From the NCBI RefSeq assembly GCF_000151315.2, contig NW_011887294.1, forward strand, positions 789,951 to 853,950: 64,000 nt of DNA, written 5' to 3'. The notes beneath the pieces were generated by a model. It was not told the origin of the DNA and did no database searches. It was given only the letters and a program-made list of their open reading frames with translations. Origin of the DNA: Capsaspora owczarzaki ATCC 30864. Lineage: Eukaryota > Opisthokonta > Filasterea. Positions 50,841 through 60,190 of the stretch are shown here, piece after piece. The position numbers and the translations under genes were made by a program. The first letter of the stretch is position 1. The number at the start of each line of letters is the position of its first letter.

Positions 50841-53800
50841 ATGCCACGAGAAGGATTTGCCTATGGTCTGCTTCTGCTGATCGGCGTAATGTGCCACGTC
50901 CAGTTGGCACAAGCAGTCGACGCTTGCACCGCGTGCACTTGTTCTGCAACCAAAGTCGATTGCACTGGCAAATCTCTCACCGCCATTCCAACCGGAATCC
51001 CAGGTACCACAAAAGAACTGTAAGTGGCAGCCTGTTGGTTTAGACCGGAGATTGGAAGCATGGCCCTTCTGACTTGACATTTGGTCGATAGGTATCTGAC
51101 GAATAACCTGGTCACCGACATTTCTGCAACCGCATTCACCGGCCTGAGCGCGCTGACGCGATTGTAAGCCAAAAGAGACAGGATGAATCACACGCACCAA
51201 CTGCTCACTCTTTTACCGCCGCCCCCCTTCCCCCATCCGCAGGGATTTGCAACAAAACCGGATCACCAGCATTTCTGCCAACGCATTCACCGGCCTGACT
51301 GCGCTGACCATATTGTATGCAAACAAAAGACATAATGAATCCAACACAAATCAAACGACTCACTGTTTTGCCGTGTAGGAATCTGGGCTCCAACCGGCTC
51401 CCCAGCATTTCCGCAAACACATTCACAGGCCTGACTGGGCTGAGTACCACATTGTATGCAAGCAACGGCAAGAAGAGTTTGAACACACAAACTACTCACT
51501 CGTTTGCGAATCGACCGTAGAGATCTATCGAGCAACCTGATCACGGCCATTGCCATAAACGCGTTCGCGGGCCTGCCTGCGCTGCAGTCCTTGTAAGCAA
51601 AAGCAAAGACAGGACTCCTCCACGAATGGCTCACTTGTTGGCGACGATCTTTAGATCTCTGCAACTCAACCAGCTCAGCAGCATTCCTGTAGGAGCATTC
51701 TCAGGGCTCCCTGCGCTGACCCAATTGTAAACAAGCAAAGACTCAAAGTGTGCCAGACAACAGGCTCACTCGTTTGCGACTTCATTTGTAGGGGTGCGCA
51801 TCGCAACCTGTTCACCAGCATTCCCGTAGACGCACTTTCTAGCCTGACTGCGCTAAAGTCACTGTAAGCAAGCAAAAGCACGAGGCTCACACTCAAACGG
51901 CTCACTGTTTGGATCGGTAGATATTTGTGGGGGAACCAGATTACCAGCATTCCTTCATCTGCATTCAGCAGCATGCCTGCGCTAATGCTCTTGTAAGCCA
52001 ACAAAGACACCTCTCTCTCTCACACACACACACACAAAACGGCTCACTCATTCGTAACACTCTTGATAGGCAACTGCAGTCCAATGCAATCACAAACATT
52101 CCCGCCAACGCATTCACCGGCTTGACTACGCTGTTTTCCATGTACACAAACAAAACACATGATTCATCACGCACACCAAACTGTTCACTCGTTGGCAACT
52201 TGATCTGTAGGCGACTCGACAACAACCAGCTCACCAGCATTTCTGCAAACACATTCATAGGCCTGACTGCGATGACAGCAGTGTAAGCAAGCACACTTAA
52301 ATGCACGTATTGGATTTGCCTCTTACTTTGTGGTACTTTGCAGGGCTTTGAATGGCAATGCCTTCACCACTTTGCCGCCCGGTTTGTTCAAGGGTCTGCG
52401 AAATGGCCTGTATTTGGCGGACCCTTCATCCTTTGCCCTGAGCCCCAACAACTTTACCTTTGGTGGGAACAATGTCGCTCCGCCCAGCACATACGGCAGT
52501 GCAGCCACTCCAAGACGTAAGTTCTGATGAGTGCAATCCGTATATGGATCGTTTCACTGATCTCTACATGGCAGAGTGCGATACAGCCTGCGCTACCTGC
52601 TATGCTGCTGGGTCTGGTGCGTGTTGCGGGATTAATTGTCTGATTTGTAATTCGTCCGATCCCTGTACCGAGTGCTACGATGGTTTTGTGATGCTGAGTG
52701 GATCCTGTGTTTCGCTCGCTTCCATCGCCTCCATCGCGTCCACGCAATCTGCCTCGGCTGCCTCTGTTGCTTCCATCGCTTCGGTCGCATCCACACAATC
52801 TGCCTCAGCTGCCTCTGTTGCTTCCATCGCTTCGGTCGCGTCCACAAAATCTGCCTCGGCTGCCTCTGTTGCTTCCATCGCTTCGGTCGCGTCCACACAA
52901 TCTGCCTCGGCTGCCTCGATTGCATCCGATGCATCCGCTGCATCGACGCTGTCGGCGTCCTTTGCTTCACTCGCTACGGCATCTTCTGCCTCTATCGCAT
53001 CTGCTGCAAGCGCGTCGTTTGCCTCTGCTGCTTCCGATGTTTCTGCTACTTTGGCATCTGCTGCTTCCCGCGCTGCTGCGTCATCCGCGTCAATCGCATC
53101 ACAAATGTCCGCATCAGCCGCCTCCGATGCTTCCGCTATTTCGGCCTCCGTTGCTTCCCTTGCTACTGCGGCTTCTGCATCTCAGGCGTCTGCATCTGTC
53201 GCCTCTGATGTTTCCGCTGCCTCGGCGTCCCTTGCTTCCATCGCGTCTGCATCTTCAGCTTCCATTGCTTCACTCGCTGCAGCATCTTCAGCGTCAATTG
53301 CATCTGCTGCCAGCGCGTCGTACGCATCTCTCGCTTCAGACGTTTCCGCCACCTCGGCGTCCTTTGCTTCTCTCGCTGCTGCGTCCTCTGCTTCAATTGC
53401 CTCACAGGCGTCCGCATCAGCCGCCAGTGCTTCATCTGCATGGCAGACGTCTGCTGCATCTGCTGCGTCGAATGCTCCAAAAAGTTCAAGTGACTCAGAT
53501 TCATGGCCGATTATTCTCGGAGTCATTCTTGGCCTGTTAGCCCTCATCTTGTTGGCTGCGCTGGTTGTGGCTCTTCGGCGTCGCCGCTCACCAAAGGCAT
53601 TGGCCACCACCAGCACGGCCACCAAACTGCGCGAATCCGCAACCGGCTCAGAGCCGACTTACCAGTCGGTTGATTCCAGCAACACTGTGTCCAACGTTGT
53701 GAATCCAACCTATGCAGCATTGTCTGGCACTGACAACCATGCTCTGTATGAAGATGTTAGCTCAGCGCGCCTGGCCCCTGTCGGTGCGTCGGAACAGGTG

Positions 53801-54214
53801 TATGCCGAAGCATCCAGTACAACACAACCGTCAGGTAGCAGTGGCATCGAGTACGCCGATCCTTCGCTGCCCAGCGCCTCATCCGTTCGTGCGCAGTCCG
53901 CGTCCTCACCAACTTTTTATGCGACGGTAGCTGCTGTACCATCCGAGCAGACCTACGAAGCTGTGTCTGCAACTGGCGCGGATACTTTGTACGAAGATGC
54001 CGGCTCAAAGCCCCAGGCTCCTGTTGGTTTATCGGAACTGCAGGATACTGACGCAGCCGTGTCTGCATCCGGTGTCGAGTACGCCAATCCTTCGCTGCCC
54101 GATCCCTCGTCTGTTCGTGTGCCAACCGCGTCCTCACCAACTTCTTACGCGACGGTCGCTGTTGCCCCTTCCACGCAGACCGGGAATGTCGACTACGCGT
54201 CTATGGCAAACTAG
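50841..54214 (+). CDS. LRR receptor-like type I membrane protein with tyrosine-rich tail
   Basis: Twelve exons: 50841-51019, 51092-51163, 51243-51314, 51379-51453, 51521-51592, 51655-51726, 51792-51863, 51921-51992, 52070-52141, 52211-52282, 52344-52516 and 52575-54214. They close in frame to 880 residues. A signal peptide (hydrophobic GLLLLIGVMCHV) is followed by a Cys-rich LRR cap. Exons 2-10 each encode one 24-residue LRR (one is 25), all with phase 2 introns of 57-79 bases. Next come a Cys-rich module at about 335-378, an Ala/Ser-rich stalk of about 260 residues, one membrane helix at about 644-667 followed by RRRR, and a tail of about 210 residues. The tail has 11 tyrosines in short motifs: YQSV, NPTYAAL, LYEDV, VYAEA, EYADP, TFYATV, TYEAV, LYEDA, EYANP, TSYATV and DYASM. 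There is no kinase domain. A surface receptor or adaptor phosphorylated by tyrosine kinases is inferred. I recognise no named orthologue. The last intron (58 bases) is needed to bypass a stop. Confidence 0.85.
52741..52920 (+). repeat. 51-base tandem repeat coding the Ala/Ser stalk of the LRR receptor
   Basis: Copies begin at 52741, 52792, 52843 and 52894 (the last partial), each coding 17 residues of the pattern TQSASAASVASIASVAS. Copies differ by only a few bases. Downstream to about 53480 the stalk continues as degenerate Ala/Ser repeats. It is probably a rigid or heavily glycosylated spacer between the LRRs and the membrane. Confidence 0.92.
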
Positions 54215-54601: not shown

Positions 54602-56990
54602 CTAGCACACGGAAAAGTCGTACAACTTGACCGTCGTATCGTAGGAGCCCGACACAATTCTGGAATCGTTGAATTGAAGACACGTAACGCCGTCAGTGTG
54701 GTGCCGGAGGGTAAGCATGCGCTGGCCAGCTAGCAGATTCCAGACCTTGAGGGTCTTGTCATCGGCCGCGCTGACCATGCGCCACGAGTCAAACTGCAAA
54801 TGTCGGACGACGCCAGTGTGTCCTTCATTCCGGACCCAGTCGAGCGTCCCCATGCACAGCCCTGTGGTGATGTCCCAAAAGCGGAGACTCGAGTCCAACG
54901 AGCCCGAGACAATCTTGCTCTCGTCAAACTGGAGACAGGTCACGGCATCGTCGTGCCCAGTCAGAGTGCGGAGACACTGGCCGGTCTTGGCGTCCCACAC
55001 TTTGATGGTCTTGTCCATCGAGCCTGAAACAATCTTGGTATGGTCGAGGTGGACACACAACACGGCAGCCGAATGGCCACGCAGCGTCAATTTGCACGAG
55101 CCAGAGCGCCAATCCCACAGCTTGAGCGTTGTGTCGTAGCTGCCGCTCACAACGCGGTCGCCGAGTACGCGCAAGCAACGGACCGTGTCGGTATGACCAA
55201 ACATGGTGACCTTGCATGTGCCAGTACTGAGATCCCACACCTTGATGGTGCGATCGCTGGAGCCACTGAAAAGGGTGGTGCCGTCGAGGTGCAGGCAGCG
55301 AACCGTGCCCAAGTGACCGTGCAGGGTCATGGCAGCTTTGGTGTTGGTGCGAATGTTCCAAACGCGAATCGTGCGGTCGGTGGAGCCGCTGACGATGCGT
55401 ACGTGGTCGAATTGCAGACAAGAGATGCCTTGCGAGTGACCCTCAAAGGTGCGCACAGTGTAGCGACCATTGAGCCAGTTGCGCCTCAGCCGGTACCGTT
55501 CGGCAAAGATGAGCTTCCATGCCACGACAATCTCGCCGCCAAGCTCGGGCGACGGATGCGAGTAATGCTGAAGCTGGCGCTCGCGCTCTTCGGCGCTCAC
55601 CCATCCTTCGCTCTTTCGACAGTGCTCCATCCAGAGGCTCGAGTCGGAGGCGAGATGCTCCCACGCGCGGCTCACCTGAGACGCTCGACACAGAGACGTT
55701 ACGTCCAGATACGACAGAATGCGCATGGAAATGTCCACCGGCAACCATGCGAGAATGTCTTGACAGTTGTGCGGGCAGTGCTTGTGCATGCGTGGCTCCA
55801 TCTGAACGGACAAAAAGTGGACCTGTGACGGCCCGCTCTGCTCAATGAGCATGCGCAGCAGCGTGTTGCGCTGAATGTCGTTAAAGTCCTCAAACCACTC
55901 TGAGATTTTTTGAACGCGCTTCCGCACAATTTGACCAGTGACCGCATCGCCGCGCGCCGAGTGATGCGACTTGATGGATTGGAGGGATGACGACTTTGTG
56001 AGGTGCTGTCGCGAGCTGGACGTGGCACTGGCAGGAAGATGGGTCGGTGCTTGGAACACTGAAGCAAGCGATCCACCACCAACGGCAGCAGCAGCAGCAG
56101 CTGCCGATGCAGCAGTTTCGAGCCGGTTGGTTGAGATGGCAAAGGATACCGAGCTGTTCGAAGCAGCTGAGGTCATATTAAGAGGGGCAAACGAGTTGGC
56201 CGAGTGGGCAGTGTGCTGCAACTGGTGTTGTTGCGACTGGTGTTGTTGCGACTGGTGTTGTTGCAACTGGGCTTGTTGCACCTGCGGCTCGGAGGACTGC
56301 TGTTGGTGCCACGCTGAGACTACCGGCTGATTCTGCGATGAAGGAAGCGAGACAGTCCTCGACACAGAGTCGTGCGGCAGCCTCATCAGCACGGCCGAGA
56401 AGGAGCGCATGCCGACGGTCGCGGGCGTTGGGGTGGTCGCTTCTTCATCGGCAGACTTGATGGGCGACATTGGAGGGGTGGGAGGCGGAGATGAGCTCGG
56501 GGCGAGGGCAAGCGGGGTGGGAGGGCCCGACGGAGGAAGCTGAGTGAGGTTTGCGGTGCCGTGACCAACGTCCAAGGTCGAATTCGAGTGGCTGGCAGCG
56601 TCGCGCTGAAGCCTGAGTTGCTGCTCAATCTCTTGCTGGAGATGGAGAAGATCCGAGTAATGCACCGTCGGGAACTCTGGCGATGCAACGTTGCTGGAAC
56701 CAGGTGGCAATGGGGGCGCAATCAACGGAGCGTCGTTCGCGGCGGGGTTGACGCCATCGAGATCGTCCAAATCGTCCAAGTCCGAAGGGTTTTCCGCAAC
56801 CCAAGACGCCGGCAGCTGACGACGTGATCGATGTTGCGGCGCAAACGTGGTGGTGAAGGGATCATGCACGTGCGACGCCCAGGAGTTGGCCGCAGAAGGC
56901 GAGCTCGAACCGGCCTTTCCACTACGGCCAGGACTTCCCGGAGGTTGATAGGCCTCCATCCAAGAAGCGCGCGGAGACAAACGCTGTTGA

Positions 56991-57087
<97 letters not shown>

Positions 57088-58921
57088 GCAGCTGCTGCTG
57101 GTTTTGGCGTTCGACAAAGAAGGCCCCGTTCGCGCCGCTGCTCCGACCAAGGCTGGTGTGAATGGATTGCATGTGCTTGGTTGGGCGAATGAGAACCGAC
57201 GAAGAAGCGCCCAATGAGGCATTTGGAGACGACGGTGACGTCGTACCCGTGCCTGTTGGCGAATTGGCGCCAGTATTTCCCAGACTGCGCTTGGCGTTGC
57301 TGCTGCTACGACGCTTTTTCCGCTTGCCAGATGCGGACGACGGGAATGACGAAGGAAAGGCAGAGCTGGCCGTGCCATTGACCCCAGAAGCCGAGTTGGC
57401 CGCGAGAGGATTCGAGCCGCTGCCCGCCAAGTTGGACGAAGCGGACGACGGGGCGCCTTCGCTGGCTGCTCGTTGCGCGGCCACAGCTGCTGCAGCGCCC
57501 ATGGTGACGGCCACCAAATCTGGCAGGTTACTGGAGGAGCCAGTGAGCGAACCCGTGCTGGCAGCACTACCTGCACTGGTGACGCTGGTGATGCTGGCGA
57601 TGCTCGGTCGGCGAGAATTGATGGCGTTGAAGGACGGATGGATGGCGGATGCCGGTACTACTACGGCGGGGTGAATCGCAAGACCGGCAGCCGAGGCAGT
57701 GGTCGTGGTCGAGGCAGACGCGCCAGAAACGGTCGAAATGAGCGACGCAGTTGACGTCCACACGGTGGCGTCGAACGGCGACCGCCGGCCTGGACGGGCG
57801 CCCTGGGCTTTCAAGGGACAGGAGGTAGAGTGTCTACGTCGGTTGTGGCGGCGCATCACGGCTGGAGGCACATCCGCAGTAGTGGCACAGCACAATGGGC
57901 AATGGCAATCCTCGTCGGCGTCATCGTCTGTCGGGTCGGGGTCGTCACTGTCGGCTGGGCCTGGGCCGGCCGTGCCATCTCTACCGTGCCTGCTGCCACT
58001 TGCAGCCGAGTCCGTGTTTGTCCAACTTGCCGAGTCAAACCGATACTTGAACGCACGCGAATGCTCGTTGAGCTCGGATCCCGACAAACCAGAGTCGCTC
58101 GTGTTTTCCTCGCTGTCGCTGCTCTCGTCCGCGCCAGCGCGAGAAAAGAACTGGACGGGCGGCGATGGGCCCAAGAGATGCTGCGGCATGGTGCTCGCCA
58201 AGGCCGGAGGCAGCTGGGTGCTGAGCGACGGGACGGGGAATGGGAGCGGCTGGGCGACAACCACCGGAGCCGCAATGCGCGGAGACGGCCGTGTGGTCGG
58301 CTTGAGAAAGTTGGCGCTCGCCAGCGTCGGACTGAGCGCAGTCGACAGCGTCGGATACGCCTGGACGGACGCGACGACTGCGGCGGGCACCGGTTGAGCA
58401 ACCGCAACAACAATTTGCTGCTTGCGCTCGGCCTTGCGCTGCTTGGACAAGAAGGACGGCTTTTTGCTCGAGGTGTCTGTGCTACTACTTGGGCTCGGAC
58501 TGTCTGTACTCGCAGAGGCATTCGTTGTGGTGGACGATGCATGGTTGCTGCTGCTACTGCCATGGCCGGCAATGGTGTTGGCGGCGCTTGAAACACCCAT
58601 GACGATGAGCCGCTTGACCTTGTACGCAGCCTCGGCGCCAATGCTGCCTGCGCGCGCGAGCACAGGCGACGACGACGACGACGACGGTGGCGCAGACGGC
58701 CCACCACTCGTCGACGCTGAAGTCGAGGTGGATGCCATCGCCGTCGTTGTTGTCGTGGTTGTCGCTGTCGGCGGGGCGGTCGTTCGAGATGCTTGTTGCG
58801 AACTGCTCGCCTGTCGTGCCGCTGCTGCAGCTGCAGCCGTGGTTGTAGCGGGGACAGTCCCACCACCACCGCCGCCACCAGCAGGCAACGACGACGAGGA
58901 CGATGATGAGCTGTGCACCAT
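54602..58921 (-). CDS. F-box/WD40 protein, SCF ubiquitin-ligase substrate receptor (Fbw7/Met30/Pop1-like)
   Basis: One uninterrupted exon of 1,439 residues. The first 1,050 residues are low complexity: Ser/Ala/Thr-rich, with a pure Gln run of about 32 coded by CAA. An F-box lies at about 1055-1100 (ILAWLPVDISMRILSYLDVT, SQVSRAWEHLASDSSLW). A short linker (ERYRLRRNWLNGRYTVRTF) leads to a propeller of seven WD40 repeats at about 1155-1439, each with a clear GH...WD pattern such as GHLGTVRCLHL and SGSSDRTIKVWDL. F-box proteins of this layout bind Skp1 and present phosphorylated substrates to SCF ligases in cell-cycle or metabolic control. Two repeats carry TVRC, similar to the Fbw7 phosphodegron arginines, but the third expected Arg is not obvious, so I give no gene name. 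An in-frame extension to 59140 is T-run derived and left out. Confidence 0.88.
56991..57087 (-). repeat. Pure CAA (poly-Gln) repeat in the F-box/WD40 gene
   Basis: About 32 uninterrupted CAA codons on the minus strand (TTG on the plus strand), flanked by CTG/CAG-mixed Gln codons on the 3' side. It codes the poly-Gln run in the disordered N-region. Purity suggests recent expansion or slippage. Confidence 0.93.
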
Positions 58922-60190
58922 GTTTGTCGCCTCAGCGAAAGGGGGAGGGAGAACAAGCAGACCACTGAAAATAACCTGAGAATTACAATAAAAAAACAAA
59001 CAAAAAAAAAAAAAAAACTGGATTGAGCTTTGCGTCAGGTCGAATTGGACACCGTGACGATCAACACTGGCAGGGCCGATCTCGGTACATGAAGGGGATG
59101 CCGTTTGTATGTGTGTGTGTGTGTATGTGTGTATGTGCATGTGCAGGTTGGTTGGTTGGGAAGCAGACGAGTTGAATCAAGTCAACCAAAATCGCAGTTT
59201 TCGATGGATTTGGGCAGCGAGCAGGATGGAAATAGCAACCAAACGTCACCGTTTTGCTTCTTCGCTCTCGAGGACTGTGCTCTCAGCATCCAATCTTCTA
59301 CCTCGACATGGACTGCACACAGAGCAGTTGTCCTCTCTTTGAGGGTCCGGCCGCTTTTTGTGCGTGTCCGGATCGTCTTTTCCGCGGATTTTGCCGTTCT
59401 TGACTGATGCAGCTGTCAAGACTTGTTCGGATTTCTGTGACCTGTCAAACACCGCAAGTCGGTGTCGAGTTCTTTGTCTCAAGTTCTTTGTCCCCAATCG
59501 AGTTCACTCCACCCTTTTCTTCTTTTCTTTTGCCTTGTCATTTCAGTTTTTCTTTTTTCACGCTTTTTCAGAACACGGTTGCATTGCGTGCAACTCGCCC
59601 AAACAAACAAACAAACAACCATGGCCGTCACTGCCGCTCCTCGGTCTGCCAAGAACGACAACAACAACAACAACACTAGCAACAACAAACAATAACAACA
59701 ATGACAATGAAAATCAAGGCCAGACGTATGCTGTCGCACCAGATCGGCGTCGCGCGACTCGAGTGGTTTTTGGCCACAAACGGTTTTGCAACCAAGCCGT
59801 CGTCGGCCCGATCATGGGCGTCTTGGGCCACGCCTGAACCCATGCCATCCCGATCAGGTGGTGGACGGCATCAGGTGGGAACGCAAGGTGGGGAACCACG
59901 AGAGTATTCTCGAGGGTAAAACTGTGAGGGGCCTAAACAGGGGGAGGACACCAATACAGTTGAAAAGAACGATCAGCTTGGAGCCGCGCAGGGTCGAGCC
60001 AGCTCGGGGGGTAGATCATACGAGACCGAGAAACCTATTTAGATGTAATCATGCGTTCGTGATTGCCACCGCTGTTTGATATGTCATGAGCGTCTGACTG
60101 TGCTAACAGGTGAGCAGGAGCTGGAGGGGAGGTGAGCGGACGGAAGCGAAAGAAGGGACTTTGAGGCCACCTGGAGAAGCGAATTTGTTG
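58922..60190. other. Gene-poor region upstream of the F-box/WD40 gene
   Basis: It contains an A run at 59001-59018 (a T run ahead of the F-box start), a (GT)n tract at 59107-59135 and mixed sequence. A short frame from about 59622 (MAVTAAPRSAKND, then Asn repeats) has no family match. A frame at 59786-60079 has a basic stretch (ILEGKTVRGLNRGRTP) that faintly recalls the tail of LINE polymerases, but this is too weak to call. Confidence 0.35.

Follow-up and report, generated by a model that had tools for sequence, protein, structure and literature searches.

The vertebrate receptors that carry immunoreceptor tyrosine-based inhibitory motifs (ITIMs) or switch motifs (ITSMs) include PD-1 and the SLAM family, beside the Siglecs. 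KIR, LILR and SIRP are paired activating and inhibitory receptors, and the variable lymphocyte receptors (VLRs) of jawless vertebrates are assembled somatically from leucine-rich repeat (LRR) cassettes. As given in passages of PMC10906256, the ITSM consensus is TxYxx(V/I), and in Siglec-3 the ITIM is the more important of the two, and what the ITSM recruits is mainly SHP-2. Here we examine a candidate receptor gene in a 64,000-nt stretch of the genome of Capsaspora owczarzaki ATCC 30864 (assembly GCF_000151315.2, contig NW_011887294.1, positions 789,951-853,950, forward strand). This whole stretch is referred to as the window, and features are given in window coordinates. We put the probability at roughly two in three that the genome encodes a diversified repertoire of LRR receptors with two signalling ends, a kinase or a phosphotyrosine-docking tail, and that the receptor in the window is a docking co-receptor with a diversified recognition domain.

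The gene lies at 50841-54214 on the plus strand and was modelled from the sequence as 12 exons separated by 11 GT-AG introns, giving a stop-free protein of 880 aa. From the N-terminus, the protein consists of a hydrophobic signal peptide, an LRRNT, LRRs, a Cys-rich module, an Ala/Ser (SAS) stalk, a membrane helix and a tail. A sequence-only reading of this DNA had proposed a kinase-less LRR receptor in which a signal peptide, LRRs and a stalk are followed by a single membrane helix and a tail bearing 11 tyrosines; the model contains all of these parts, and the tail is found at the position given there. Exon 12 is a single open frame through the Cys module, stalk, helix and tail; the joining of the LRR exons to it, which the same reading said transcripts could refute, is supported by the splice sites and by a similar layout of paralogues, and this support is genomic rather than transcriptional. 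Pfam finds LRR_8 (E=1.9e-57) and LRRNT (E=3.7e-7) in the 880-aa protein, no Ig family of the kind that forms the ectodomain of ITIM/ITSM immunoreceptors, and no family above cut-off in the tail. Nor does it find a kinase family, and the frame stops at 54214, so that the kinase that follows the helix in a receptor tyrosine kinase (RTK) is absent. Below the cut-off, the membrane helix resembles TMEM154 (E=0.006) and the ErbB1 membrane segment (E=0.13). The best PDB sequence matches of the ectodomain are to animal LRR proteins, namely LGR4, IGFALS, LRIG1, LRRC15, TLR3 and VLRs (VLR-A, E=1.5e-31), which we take as evidence for the type of LRR and not for orthology.

Tyrosine motifs of the tail and their conservation

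The window tail contains two ITSMs, TFYATV and TSYATV, against 0.11 expected from residue shuffles (P=0.005), and in this respect resembles the tails of ITSM receptors. Strict ITIMs, (S/I/V/L)xYxx(I/L/V), number zero in the window tail with 0.52 expected; of the two motif types in the earlier description of the tyrosines as ITIM/ITSM-like, only the ITSM is present in strict form. The docking-like NPTYAAL noted in the sequence-only reading is the single NPxY of the tail (shuffle P=0.028), and the LYEDV/LYEDA pair and EYANP type noted there recur in our counts as two LYED(V/A) and two EYA(D/N)P, alongside seven YxxPhi. Part of this repetition is due to an internal duplication, in which the unit from Y726 to Y783 is repeated as Y807 to Y859. 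The second unit is present in only 9-10 of 32 aligned tails, and conservation among paralogues is a stronger argument against chance motifs than are counts in the window tail. We also considered a canonical immunoreceptor tyrosine-based activation motif at Y714-Y726 and do not claim it: in the window Val stands at +3 of the second tyrosine, and the spacing, 12 in 22 of 31 tails, varies in the other nine.

Searches of the Capsaspora genome covered 27.46 Mb in 29 contigs (C3, C14 and so on denote contigs, and L030, L083 and so on denote loci). Two published Capsaspora GAPDH primers (PMC9170242) fit this genome without mismatch, in convergent orientation about 0.5 kb apart and with an apparent intron between them. 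A published coYki targeting arm gave no match, either as DNA or in translation, which may reflect limits of the search, a stretch missing from the searched sequence or a strain difference. The tail-protein query gave 84 match rows, which were merged by eye into 42 places, with pieces of one gene combined and rows weaker than about E=2e-4 excluded. We read 33 of these places and aligned 32, dropping one fragment and trimming one copy at a frame break; the distant row L060 was omitted from the column-conservation and codon-step tests, so that the tree comprises 31 tails. Near-invariance is seen for five tyrosines (Y714, Y726, Y744, Y761 and Y783), with weaker sites at Y697 (Tyr in 23/30 tails), Y875 (25/28) and Y795 (only 9/27). 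On the tree, the five core codons show 3 steps at positions 1 and 2 combined and 20 at position 3, compared with 858 and 703 (means of 6.9 and 5.7) in 124 further columns that have 20 letters or more and include Y795; the corresponding steps are 6 and 4 for Y697, and 4 and 4 for Y875. When all eight Tyr-majority columns are taken without selection, mean conservation is 0.87 versus 0.70 in the 123 others (p=0.003). At Y783 the full ITSM consensus is found in 30 of 31 tails, the exception being a tail that diverges from Y783 onward, and Thr occupies position 781, at -2 of Y783, in every one of 30 rows. Judged by these alignments, the core tail tyrosines are under constraint and the ITSM consensus is nearly invariant. 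The sequence-only reading had made its case depend on conservation of the Y motifs in relatives; among the paralogues of this one genome conservation holds for most sites.

Separate histories of ectodomains and cytoplasmic ends

A query with the Cys module returned 130 matches at E<=1 (126 at E<=0.001), a second query returned 126, and a few genes hold two. To assign classes, we took for each match the next part downstream, provided that it lay on the same strand, no more than 4.5 kb away and ahead of any further Cys module. Counting kinases among the matches listed, a Y tail follows 38 of the 130 and a tyrosine kinase at least 38, no match has both ends and 54 have neither; this last group, of which L053 and L054 were examined, may include other tails, secreted forms or decayed genes. 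In nine module-bearing RTKs (L044 and L045-L052) an open frame runs from the Cys module through the stalk and membrane helix into the kinase. The RTKs L045-L052 show the motifs HRD(L/I)AARN and (A/S)DFG, and juxtamembrane regions in this set are also Tyr-rich. On these assignments, the family has some 38 kinase-less members, the window gene among them, and its ectodomain type, LRRs with Cys module and SAS stalk, also stands on about as many RTKs, a kinship that goes beyond the sequence-only reading. Because it was seen inside one genome only, the kinase-less family may be confined to the Capsaspora lineage, and the pre-animal origin put forward in the sequence-only reading is conjectural. The parts of the open-licence literature that our search reached hold no description of it that we found; the LRR-bearing Capsaspora RTKs may well be described already.

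As in paired receptors, closely similar ectodomains are found on different signalling ends. Cys modules were compared for 28 of 38 kinase-class and 26 of 38 tail-class genes, with one kinase-class stretch giving no pattern match and one extra match dropped, and for 15 of the 54 the nearest neighbour lies in the other class. One case is the kinase-less L030 gene (C3, 94 kb), whose best ectodomain match is L083, 84.8% identical over 1744 nt with introns included. We class L083 as a putative RTK on the basis of a 618-aa open frame that contains both its Cys match and the kinase at C14:750864. The helix and tail of L030 best match a different gene, at C12:721 kb (88.5% over 418 nt), and the ectodomains of these two are only 73.0% identical over 934 nt. 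None of the 10 RTK loci compared matches the L030 helix and tail, and we rejected on this ground the idea that the kinase-less tail is a degraded RTK. In a joint alignment, L030 and L083 are 95.6% identical across the Cys module, 70.9% across the stalk and 47.5% across the helix, which places the point where the two genes part in or near the stalk; the 60.9% LRR identity from this alignment was set aside, as it is affected by unequal LRR numbers. Similarly, the window gene and the copy at C3:944 kb have tails that share 96.1% identity over 558 nt, whereas their ectodomains match at best at 76.2%, over 643 nt in the 3' part. These comparisons show, at the level of DNA identity, that ectodomain and cytoplasmic end of the compared genes have separate histories.

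We extracted by pattern 290 LRR exons of 72 nt (283 distinct) from the window and 22 loci, and calculated the ratio of non-synonymous to synonymous differences (pN/pS) from disjoint pairs of similar exons, including pairs within one gene. The five exposed positions of xxLxLxx, set here by LxxLxLxxN, lie, as is established for LRRs, on the concave face. At these positions pN/pS is 3.36, 2.16, 1.89 and 1.31 at identity cut-offs of 0.90, 0.86, 0.82 and 0.78 (14, 24, 34 and 54 pairs), with lower 95% limits of 1.36, 1.24, 1.27 and 0.98, above 1 at three of the four. The remaining LRR positions give 0.26-0.41 across the four cut-offs, a range lowered by the extraction pattern, which fixes some framework residues and leaves the five exposed positions unaffected. 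This excess of non-synonymous change at the presumed ligand face is the pattern of a diversified LRR repertoire and, as far as exon comparison can show it, indicates that these receptors form a diversified recognition repertoire.

Further receptor genes were noted in the genome. Identical or 99% identical Cys modules occur in pairs at C13:256.7 and 858.8 kb, C16:12.9 and 43.7 kb, and C1:111 and 770 kb, which by their identity are recent duplications and involve both receptor classes. The paralogue L021 (C3:944.4-945.1 kb), with a tail 96% identical to that of the window, has helix and tail in different frames, and looks like a decayed copy, an intron or an assembly error. A second kinase-less type of tail, with repeated YDVL/YDAL, follows a Cys module and stalk at L054:161-2713 (C11:401-404 kb); queried with this tail, the Capsaspora genome gave only the self-match at E<=0.01. 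By eye, ITIM-like SAYATV and SAYAVV are seen in the juxtamembrane regions of RTKs L046 and L048, and three near-identical RTKs (L041-L043, on C17, C11 and C13) have apparent Calx-beta ectodomains and juxtamembrane DPTYEAV motifs.

Phosphotyrosine machinery and competing explanations

At E<=1e-10, PF07714 has 152 matches, some being separate exons of a single gene, which bears out the earlier view of this genome as rich in tyrosine kinases. SH2 gives 38 matches and Y_phosphatase 16. The tandem SH2 stretch at L061 (C13:292.4-294.7 kb) has its best match in PTPN11 (E=2.6e-87), ahead of PTPN6 (4e-64 at best) and other families (1.5e-22 or weaker), and is followed by a protein tyrosine phosphatase (PTP) domain with HCSAGIGRTG. 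By this domain order and similarity, L061 is an SHP-2 type phosphatase (SH2-SH2-PTP) in a unicellular holozoan. On C2, a PLC-gamma-like layout with two SH2 domains was recognized by eye. A phosphotyrosine-binding (PTB) domain as reader of NPxY was considered and not adopted; the search, made with the PID family, gave one marginal match (E=0.0027).

By analogy from the parts found, a ligand would cluster the kinase-less receptor, possibly together with RTKs of like ectodomain, and these RTKs or cytoplasmic tyrosine kinases would phosphorylate its tail. SH2 proteins could then dock on separate tail sites and tune the signal, with SHP-2 the likeliest reader of TxYxx(V/I). The boldest step is that the tail would be inhibitory and restrain the RTKs, which we infer from the presence of the ITSM and of SHP-2 alone. 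More tentatively still, and probably going too far, the genes could form a paired-receptor system in a protist, in which one diversifying and hypervariable set of LRR ectodomains is swapped between two ends, an activating kinase and a restraining ITSM tail read by SHP-2, with the exchange falling within or close to the SAS stalk. This would be a germline analogue of the activating and inhibitory pairs of immunity, for recognition of self, prey, microbe or host.

A number of observations weigh against a repertoire with kinase and docking ends. The case is built on genome sequence, and phosphorylation, binding and expression of the receptor are presumed. Seven tyrosines of the window tail fit YxxPhi and one fits NPxY, and endocytic sorting may account for some of the constraint on them. 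The five core sites were selected for being conserved, Y697 and Y875 are less constrained and Y795 is mostly another residue, and the conservation was measured throughout among paralogues within a single genome, a setting in which gene conversion can raise it. Neither known end follows 54 of the 130 Cys-module matches (kinases among the matches listed), 4 of the 38 Y tails match only weakly (E about 1e-5), and there are copies that look decayed. The Cys modules also cluster by class above shuffled labels (same-class nearest neighbour in 39 of 54, shuffle mean 0.49, p=0.0055), and exchange between classes is therefore limited. Finally, the L030 ectodomain has a nearly tied runner-up in the kinase-less L031 (84.2% over 1740 nt), the rest being far behind.

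Three other explanations of the tail were weighed against this reading. It is very improbable that the motifs are low-complexity or chance products in the tail of a mucin-like adhesin: A, S, T and P abound in the tail, and the internal duplication yields some of the repeated motifs, but the motifs are kept across 32 tails and the core Y codons vary at position 3 and scarcely at positions 1 and 2. Alignment, conservation and codon results speak against chance as a full account. Alternatively, the conserved tyrosines could be sorting signals, NPxY and YxxPhi, recognized by clathrin adaptors on uptake or adhesion receptors, with phosphorylation beside the point. We consider this unlikely. NPxY is found at Y714 in 27 of 32 tails, and YxxPhi at Y714 in 30/32, at Y726 in 31/32 and at Y783 in 30/31; however, Y744 and Y761 are equally conserved without a hydrophobic +3 residue (YxxPhi in 1/31 and 0/32), and YxxPhi does not require the invariant T781.

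The kinase-less receptor could also be a dimer partner in the manner of ErbB3, its tail an RTK substrate that adds docking sites to the same activating pathway without inhibition. The ectodomain type common to the RTKs and the Tyr-rich juxtamembrane regions of those RTKs that were read are both consistent with such a role, which we nevertheless regard as somewhat doubtful, given that helix and tail matched none of the 10 RTK loci and that the kinase-less tail has its own conserved ITSM, the motif that, in the passages cited for Siglec-3, recruits SHP-2 (PMC10906256).

Feature coordinates and comparison with known systems

Coordinates of the receptor gene and its parts are collected in Table 1. 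The adjoining gene, at 54602-59176 on the minus strand, has a long open frame with a polyglutamine run and an end that by eye resembles an F-box with WD40 repeats.

Table 1. Parts of the kinase-less LRR receptor gene, in window coordinates
Feature	Position	Strand	Basis or conservation
Exon 1: ATG, signal peptide, LRRNT	50841..51019	+	Gene model; LRRNT by Pfam
Exons 2-10, span	51092..52282	+	Each exon, of 72 or 75 nt, holds one LRR; introns GT-AG
Exons 2-6	51092-51163, 51243-51314, 51379-51453, 51521-51592, 51655-51726	+	
Exons 7-10	51792-51863, 51921-51992, 52070-52141, 52211-52282	+	
Exon 11: last LRR, end of LRR domain	52344..52516	+	Gene model
Exon 12: Cys module, stalk, membrane helix, tail, stop TAG	52575..54214	+	Open frame
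Cys-module query match (module and stalk start; first bases intronic)	52571..52747	+	Corresponds to C3:842521-842697
Ala/Ser repeat (SAS) stalk, limits approximate	52716..53491	+	Translation
Membrane helix, residues 646-667, approximate	53507..53572	+	Hydropathy maximum
Cytoplasmic tail, 213 aa, 11 Tyr	53573..54211	+	Translation
Y714 in NPTYAAL (NPxY)	53711..53713	+	Tyr in 31/32 tails
Y726 in ALYEDV	53747..53749	+	Tyr in 32/32 tails
Y744 in QVYAEA	53801..53803	+	Tyr in 30/31 tails
Y761 in IEYADP	53852..53854	+	Tyr in 32/32 tails
Y783 in TFYATV (ITSM)	53918..53920	+	Tyr in 31/31; full ITSM consensus in 30/31 tails
Y859 in TSYATV (second ITSM, duplicated unit)	54146..54148	+	ITSM in 9/10 tails having the column
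Y875 in VDYASM, C-terminus	54194..54196	+	Tyr in 25/28 tails

Immune switch motifs, SHP-2 and diversified recognition receptors usually belong to the story of animals, and here the parts co-occur in a protist that can be gene-edited (PMC9170242). Dozens of sensors with like outer parts on either a kinase or an ITSM tail hint at animal-like balancing of signals outside animals. If the tails are phosphorylated and bound by SHP-2, then the balancing of a kinase by a motif-recruited phosphatase would exist outside animals, by common descent or by convergence, and its logic would be directly testable in Capsaspora.

Like the vertebrate ITIM/ITSM immunoreceptors, the window receptor is single-pass and kinase-less with a conserved TxYxx(V/I) tail, and SHP-2 is encoded in the same genome, whereas its ectodomain is of LRR and not Ig type, its tail has no strict ITIM, its host is unicellular and it is known from its sequence. 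With the LRR RTKs of the same genome, the kinase-less receptors share an ectodomain of LRRs, Cys module and stalk (up to 84.8% DNA identity over the 1744 nt of the pair compared), but they have no kinase domain, and their helix and tail are unmatched there. The likeness to KIR, LILR and SIRP lies in closely similar ectodomains on different signalling ends, with signs of recombination between them; in Capsaspora the other end is a kinase and not an adaptor-coupled short tail, and opposite signalling is only presumed. Unlike the VLRs, the Capsaspora receptors are encoded by a gene family in the germline, mostly with a single LRR to each exon, and end in a signalling tail, yet they have in common with them an LRRNT followed by LRR modules and a presumed concave face that is diversified.

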